Shown piece after piece: positions 7,415-8,626 of a DNA stretch of 64,000 bases. The notes beneath the pieces are model-generated. The model ran no database searches and was not told the DNA's origin. It saw nothing but the letters and a program-made list of their open reading frames with translations. The position numbers and the translations under genes were made by a program. Origin of the DNA: Thermodesulfobacterium sp. (GTDB lineage Bacteria > Desulfobacterota > Thermodesulfobacteria > Thermodesulfobacteriales > Thermodesulfobacteriaceae); the NCBI GenBank assembly GCA_017656385.1, contig JACDNX010000002.1, positions 62,001 through 126,000 of the forward strand, written 5' to 3'. Within the stretch, counting starts at the first letter, position 1. The number at the start of each line of letters is the position of its first letter.

Positions 7415-8626
7415 ATGACTAAAAGAGATCTTGCTAAAAAATTAAGCTACAAATTTGCAGACATTGAAAAAGAAGACTTGGAATACATTGTGGATCTTTT
7501 TTTCGAAATCATAAAAAAGGAATTAAAAAAAGGGAATAGGGTAGAACTTAGAGACTTTGGAGTGTTCACTTTAAAAAAGAGTAAAGGAATAATATTTCAC
7601 AATCCCAAGAATAAGCAAAATTACTATGTTAAAGGGAAATACAGGGTTTTATTTAAGCTTGGCAAAGAATTCAAACAAAGATTAAACACTCCTTTTTTAG
7701 CTTCCTTAGATCTCGGAACTCAGACATTTAGACTTTGTATAGGGAAAGTAGTGAATGGGAATGTAAATTTTCTAATAAGGGAAAGAGAAAATGTAAGATT
7801 AGGAGAAGGACTTAGTAAAGAAGGTATAATTTCCTTAGAAGCCTTTAAAAGAGGACTTGAGTGTTTGAAAAAGTTTAAAGAAAAGCTTTCAAGGTATGAA
7901 GTTGAAAATTACAGGGCTGTAGGGACAGAAGTTTTTAGAAAAGCTAAAAATGCAGAGGAATTTATAGATAAAGCCAGAAAAGAAATAGGACTTGAAATTA
8001 GTGCAATTTCTTCTGAAGAAGAAGCGAGTTTGTCTTTAAAAGGTATTTGGTTTGGATTGAAAGAATTTGGTATAAATATGGATAAATTTGTTACCGTTGA
8101 TGTAGGAGGAGGGTCTTCAGAAATAATTTGTATTGAGAATAATAAAAAAAAATGGTGGAAAAGCATTGAACTTGGGGCTGTTGTTTTAAAAGAATTTTTT
8201 AACCTAAGATACCCTTTAAATTCTAAACTTATACAATCTTTGAAAGACTATATAAAAGAAGTCCTTTCTTTAATTCCTGTAGATAATCCTCAAGAGTTAG
8301 TTATTACAGGTGGAACAGCAAGTCTTCTGGGTGCACTTGATCTTAAACTTAAAGACTATGTACCTGAAAAATTACACGGACACAGAGTTACAAAAGATCG
8401 TTTAGAAAAATTAATAAAGAAGCTTGCTAACTTTGATCTGGAAAGGTTACGGAGAGTAAAAGGTATGGAAGAGGGAAGGGAGGATATAGCTTTACCTGGG
8501 CTTTTGATCTATTCTGGAATACTGGAACACTTTAAAAAAGATAGTTTGATTCTTAATGAGTATGGAATTTTGGAAGGAACTTTACTTTCTTTGATTGAGG
8601 ATTATAATAATTTACCCAAACCATAA
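7415..8626 (+). CDS. HU/IHF-like DNA-binding domain fused to Ppx/GppA phosphatase
   Basis: Residues 1-90 match the HU/IHF fold: a helical N-terminus, then [12 protein letters not shown] near 40-51, a shortened arm with NPK at 63-65, and the end of the domain near 90. From residue 96 the chain is a Ppx/GppA exopolyphosphatase: [10 protein letters not shown] at 98-107, the SSEEEASL segment near 199-206 holding the likely catalytic Glu, and VDVGGGSSE at 228-236. Ppx/GppA enzymes cleave inorganic polyphosphate or pppGpp. No stop, in-frame ATG or clear ribosome site separates the parts. The enzyme part (about 310 residues) matches the short form of the family. That the DNA-binding part directs the enzyme to the nucleoid is inference. 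Confidence 0.85.

Follow-up and report, generated by a model that had tools for sequence, protein, structure and literature searches.

An IHF-beta subunit joined to a Ppx/GppA phosphatase in a single protein across the order Thermodesulfobacteriales

The beta subunit of IHF carries at position 44 a glutamate known as a specificity residue of this protein, as reflected in the title of the PDB entry 1OUZ (beta-E44A, variant site). In the Ppx/GppA phosphatase of Aquifex aeolicus, Glu119 reportedly serves as the catalytic base, while Arg22 and Arg267 are said, from the work of Kristensen in 2008, to read the 3' pyrophosphate of ppGpp. We know of no described fusion of a nucleoid-bending subunit with an alarmone or polyphosphate enzyme. 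In E. coli IHF, Arg46 of the beta subunit enters the minor groove, and the prolines of the arms intercalate (PMC8421141). Rv0496 of M. tuberculosis, a two-domain relative of the Ppx/GppA phosphatases, is an exopolyphosphatase which degrades polyphosphate in vitro (PMC3411833), and the substrate of these enzymes is thus not readable from the fold alone.

Within the 64-kb window (the whole stretch of DNA that was analysed), an IHF-beta domain and a Ppx/GppA phosphatase are encoded on one chain and constitute a real fusion. The ihfB::ppx/gppA gene (7415..8626, + strand) is a single frame of 403 amino acids combining PF00216 and PF02541, is kept across the order, and starts with an ATG 2 nt past the sppA stop codon. 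The first-pass annotation had read this frame as a whole HU/IHF fold followed by a whole Ppx/GppA enzyme, and both Pfam domains are indeed complete: Bac_DNA_binding (PF00216) covers residues 1-91 (E 3.4e-21, far above cut-off) and Ppx-GppA (PF02541) covers residues 109-394 (E 3.3e-58; 198 bits versus a cut-off of 27). Among the NCBIfam models, IHF-beta ranks first for the front half, while the two-domain exopolyphosphatase model TIGR03706, followed by E. coli Ppx and GppA, ranks first for the back half. The IHF-beta (HU-fold) domain (residues 1-91; 7415..7687, +) is delimited by Pfam, NCBIfam and alignment, with helices at residues 3-13, 19-38 and 84-91 and strands in residues 43-82 of the model. 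It is followed by the joint (residues 92-93, Thr-Pro; 7688..7693, +), which leads from HU helix 3 to the first Ppx strand, and by the two-domain Ppx/GppA phosphatase (residues 94-394; 7694..8596, +), identified by Pfam, structure matches, alignment and tree. Of the earlier reading as a whole, the real and conserved fusion with guaB downstream is retained, while the generic HU assignment falls away and the polyphosphate role is weakened.

The front half had been described as HU-like. The HU/IHF fold is upheld, but the NCBIfam ranking, bit scores, residues and collinearity identify it as IHF-beta instead of a generic HU. Residues 1-91 are collinear with E. coli IhfB, the domain alone matches PF00216 over its full length (E 1.7e-22), and the HU/IHF half scores 67.9 bits against PRK00199 (IhfB), versus 48.1 against IhfA and 20.9 against HU-beta. 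The NCBIfam IhfB equivalog cut-off is missed by this half (67.9 versus 115 bits) and also by the free ihfB product at the same locus in the unfused relative G057 (94.7 versus 115 bits), and the domain is therefore called IhfB-type by synteny and residues and not as an equivalog. The 26 fused proteins aligned all have Glu44, Arg46, Phe48, Gly49, Asn63, Pro64, Phe80, Gly83 and Arg89; of these residues, Glu44 and Arg46 are common to the free IhfB copies and not found in the HU copies. The Arg62 of the GRNP arm motif has been lost in the fused proteins. The preceding Phe61 (codon 7595-7597), shortly ahead of Pro64, is invariant in 26/26 fused proteins, at a position occupied by Gly in E. coli IhfB and by Ser in the free IhfB of G057. 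With Arg62 lost and Phe61 specific to the order, the fused proteins may bind DNA with an affinity or a choice of sites unlike that of E. coli IHF. Mean pairwise identity is 0.50 for the HU half versus 0.48 for the Ppx half; the former is thus as conserved as the enzyme and so under selection, and a degenerate HU half was rejected on these grounds. When the whole model was compared using VIA-align, the matches were taken up by Ppx proteins, and the HU half was hence folded alone (eight sequences). It showed the same secondary structure as in the whole model and Foldseek matches to IHF/HU with a probability of 1.00 and a TM of ~0.5, a value which may reflect the poor superposition expected when one chain is taken from an intertwined dimer. 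Besides the fusion, the window genome contains three members of the HU family, of which one is IhfA-like and the other two are HU-like. The IhfA-like gene is present in 33 of the 37 order genomes searched, the four genomes without it being 83% complete or less, while no second IhfB-type gene occurs among the HU-family genes of seven order genomes.

The enzyme half adopts the actin-like ASKHA fold (PF02541; Z 36 to 1T6D), and its nearest solved structures by both sequence and fold are those of A. aeolicus Ppx/GppA (Foldseek TMt 0.87-0.89; VIA Z 34-36 at 28% identity, with Z 36 to 1T6D). Catalytic and phosphate-loop motifs are present (Glu203, a 13-residue stretch and GGTAS), and Glu203, D229 and G231-G233 are invariant in the fused proteins, so that the alignment agrees with the earlier statement that both halves keep their key motifs. 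Arg106, Glu203 and Arg355 align with Arg22, Glu119 and Arg267 of the A. aeolicus enzyme and are all invariant. Judging from the roles of the Aquifex residues, Glu203 is presumably catalytic and Arg106 and Arg355 are presumably pppGpp-specific positions. The 45 genomes tested (G000-G046; the order and its nearest outgroups) yielded neither PPK1 nor a PPK2 above cut-off in searches which detected their positive controls and which a polyphosphate synthase of another kind would escape, while RelA/SpoT (Rel) is encoded in 44 of the 45. Where the first-pass annotation had left the choice between an alarmone and polyphosphate, this genome context favours pppGpp and leaves polyphosphate a weak candidate. 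The whole group may lack the known kinds of polyphosphate synthesis.

In a search of 60 related genomes the fused protein was encountered across the whole order, and a frame-by-frame check found that one frame runs through the joint in 39 of the 41 Thermodesulfobacteriales genomes, an order which in the NCBI taxonomy includes both the Thermodesulfobacteriaceae and the Thermodesulfatatoraceae. Full-length copies account for 36 of the 39; those of G011 and G038 are cut by contig ends and that of G021 is interrupted by a frame break further along, within the Ppx part. In the two remaining genomes (G003 and G015) the neighbouring guaB is missing along with the fusion, so that the region is unassembled there. 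In-frame stops indicated for several relatives by the first search were rejected, as a separate frame analysis showed unbroken frames through both domains. All members of the three families that could be tested carry the fusion, despite divergence down to ~42% identity. Two different fusion genes (L009 and L050), one of which groups with the window's genus, and two guaB copies occur in G028, where contamination is therefore likely.

The linker between the HU/IHF and Ppx/GppA domains comprises approximately two residues. In the AlphaFold2 model of the whole chain (mean pLDDT 94, pTM 0.83) both folds are present, with HU helix 3 ending at residue 91 and the first Ppx strand starting at residue 94. 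No indels occur at the joint in the alignment of 26 relatives. In the window copy, the 20 codons leading up to the DLGTQ motif are free of in-frame ATG, GTG and TTG, and across the 34 copies examined there is no conserved start codon at the joint. An internal start giving rise to a free phosphatase was rejected given the latter result. The claim that the joint contains neither a stop nor an ATG thus holds for the window, and the frame is unbroken at this point in 39 of the 41 genomes. There is thus essentially no linker, and nothing points to the enzyme also being made on its own. A rigid two-residue joint of this kind could hinder dimerisation or DNA wrapping.

The fusion gene is directly preceded by sppA (peptidase S49; 6546..7412, +), with an rpsA-like gene coding for four S1 domains (5108..6535, +) as a conserved neighbour further upstream, and is directly followed by guaB (IMP dehydrogenase; 8632..10122, +), the true start of which is probably the ATG at 8653. 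Wherever the flanks are present, the fused order is rpsA-sppA-[ihfB::ppx]-guaB. In the unfused G057, cmk-rpsA-sppA-ihfB, in which ihfB has its own stop, is followed by tsaC on the opposite strand and then by ppx-guaB-guaA, and the same ihfB, tsaC, ppx and guaB order is observed in the unfused L084. In the Ppx-domain tree, all 31 fused rows form one clade (support 98/94; recovered in 98% of bootstrap trees), which gives the fusion a single origin. The unfused G057 branches beside this clade, although its own placement is supported by only 94/57. As the unfused relatives keep ihfB, tsaC and ppx-guaB in succession, the fusion arose by the joining of neighbours, apparently following the loss of tsaC, and the simplest history would be one in which this gene was lost from between co-directional neighbours before their frames were joined. 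The position of guaB downstream, from which a tie to GTP supply had been drawn, is confirmed, but the ppx-guaB pairing is also present in the unfused relatives and thus predates the fusion, so that guaB does not serve as specific evidence for its role. In the unfused locus L041 (G059), ppx is located ~50 bases after sppA with no ihfB found between them, representing another rearrangement of this block. Elsewhere in the window, a surface-polysaccharide cluster (32214-40914) codes for an O-antigen ligase, a flippase and a glycosyltransferase, with an AAA_14/DUF4143 ATPase (41081-42331) at its edge, and a tandem array (54866-54952) comprising 2.4 copies of a 36-base unit with a 90% match is located near or inside a predicted ORF.

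Outside the order, none of the ~225 genomes with a Ppx in the sample of the phylum carries the fusion. Among the matches listed for 395 phylum genomes, those starting at residue 1 or 2 (E <= 1e-20) all belong to the three families of the order, while the others start from residue 69 onward, mostly near residue 94, and correspond to Ppx without the HU domain. Sampling again around a Geobacteraceae genome drew on the phylum already covered and yielded nothing further. Other phyla were covered only through at least 80 named loci, and among those listed the matches spanning residues 1-392 were confined to L083, a member of the order, and L087 of the Geobacteraceae, which was rejected as a fusion as it consists of two separate genes. 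Fusions in other phyla may thus exist. A literature search, with a coverage that excludes most subscription journals, retrieved nothing relevant to such a fusion. Both domains belong to known families and, as far as the searched literature extends, their combination represents a new architecture, one which annotation pipelines may list without comment.

The most likely reading of these sequences is a pppGpp phosphatase borne by a DNA-bending subunit: in this order, IHF-beta would carry the cell's Ppx/GppA-type phosphatase on the same chain, giving a protein that bends DNA and hydrolyses pppGpp and in which the two activities are possibly coupled (probability of roughly 0.6). The N-terminal half would pair with the IhfA-like protein, or with itself, and bend DNA through Glu44, Arg46 and an intercalating Pro64. 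The C-terminal half would convert pppGpp to ppGpp, given that these genomes make (p)ppGpp and have no known polyphosphate kinase, and a pppGpp phosphatase would thereby be placed on the nucleoid. DNA bending and alarmone turnover may also affect each other, although this is the least certain and a speculative step. A device consisting of an IHF heterodimer with a pppGpp-hydrolysing beta subunit, in which a nucleotide in the Ppx/GppA cleft alters bending, or in which bending gates hydrolysis, through the nearly linker-free joint is a tentative proposal which we consider somewhat doubtful.

An assembly or sequencing artefact, with a stop lost between two genes, is already refuted and vanishingly improbable: the first-pass annotation had envisaged two separate genes in close relatives, but the close relatives are all fused, and 39 separate assemblies, among them the closed chromosome of T. 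geofontis (G005; 1,634,377 bp), show the same joint in frame. The main rival is passive co-translation, whereby IHF-beta and GppA work as they do elsewhere and a link without regulatory meaning, at first merely tolerated, became fixed in the ancestor. This is a possible, if less probable, explanation which is consistent with the prior adjacency of the joined genes, the single origin and the family-typical motifs in both halves with no added regulatory element, while the constant length of the joint is also expected from descent alone. IHF and GppA are, however, normally needed at very different copy numbers, so that occasional breaks would be expected of a neutral link, whereas this one has been kept in all testable members of the three families, despite divergence to ~42% identity, with no split, internal start or joint indel.

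It is improbable that the HU half is mainly a dimerisation or heat-stabilising module for an otherwise monomeric phosphatase, its DNA role having gone. Such a module would suit the obligate dimerisation of HU/IHF folds and the thermophilic hosts, of which T. geofontis has its growth optimum at 83 C (PMC3624685). The DNA-contact residues Glu44, Arg46 and Pro64 are, however, not needed for dimerisation and are nevertheless invariant in 26 sequences across the order. Only slightly less improbable is a polyphosphate switch on DNA, as the first-pass annotation had suggested, with an exopolyphosphatase acting near the nucleoid: the lack of PPK1 and of PPK2 above cut-off in 45 genomes, with positive controls detected, argues against it, while the top NCBIfam model is the exopolyphosphatase TIGR03706, although below its cut-off (222 versus 307 bits), and in vitro breakdown of polyphosphate is known from a two-domain relative (PMC3411833). 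An entire order of thermophiles has the fusion as a fixed trait. Should its halves be coupled, a single protein would tie the stringent response straight to the architecture of the chromosome, bypassing transcription. Even if they are uncoupled, the locus clearly illustrates how two genes fuse when the gene between them is lost, with relatives still displaying the arrangement that preceded the fusion.

In comparison with IhfB (PF00216, TIGR00988/PRK00199), the fusion protein is alike in its collinearity, in Glu44, Arg46, Asn63 and Pro64 and in its place after rpsA-sppA, but differs in its C-terminal enzyme, in the change of the GRNP arm to F-x-N-P and in scoring below the equivalog cut-off. 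The HU-HIG (PF18291) and HU-CCDC81 proteins likewise contain an HU domain within a multidomain protein, but these are different HU subfamilies showing weak matches to the fusion protein, and to our knowledge neither is fused to a phosphatase. The A. aeolicus Ppx/GppA (PDB 1T6C, 1T6D and 2J4R) shares the fold without C-terminal HD domains, but its chains start at the enzyme domain, whereas in the fusion an IHF-beta domain precedes the first strand. Finally, in the unfused Thermodesulfobacteriota (G057/L039, L084 and the Geobacteraceae locus L087), ihfB and ppx are adjacent and on one strand, and guaB follows ppx in G057 and L084 as in the fused order, but all three have separate genes, and in G057 and L084 these are parted by tsaC on the other strand.
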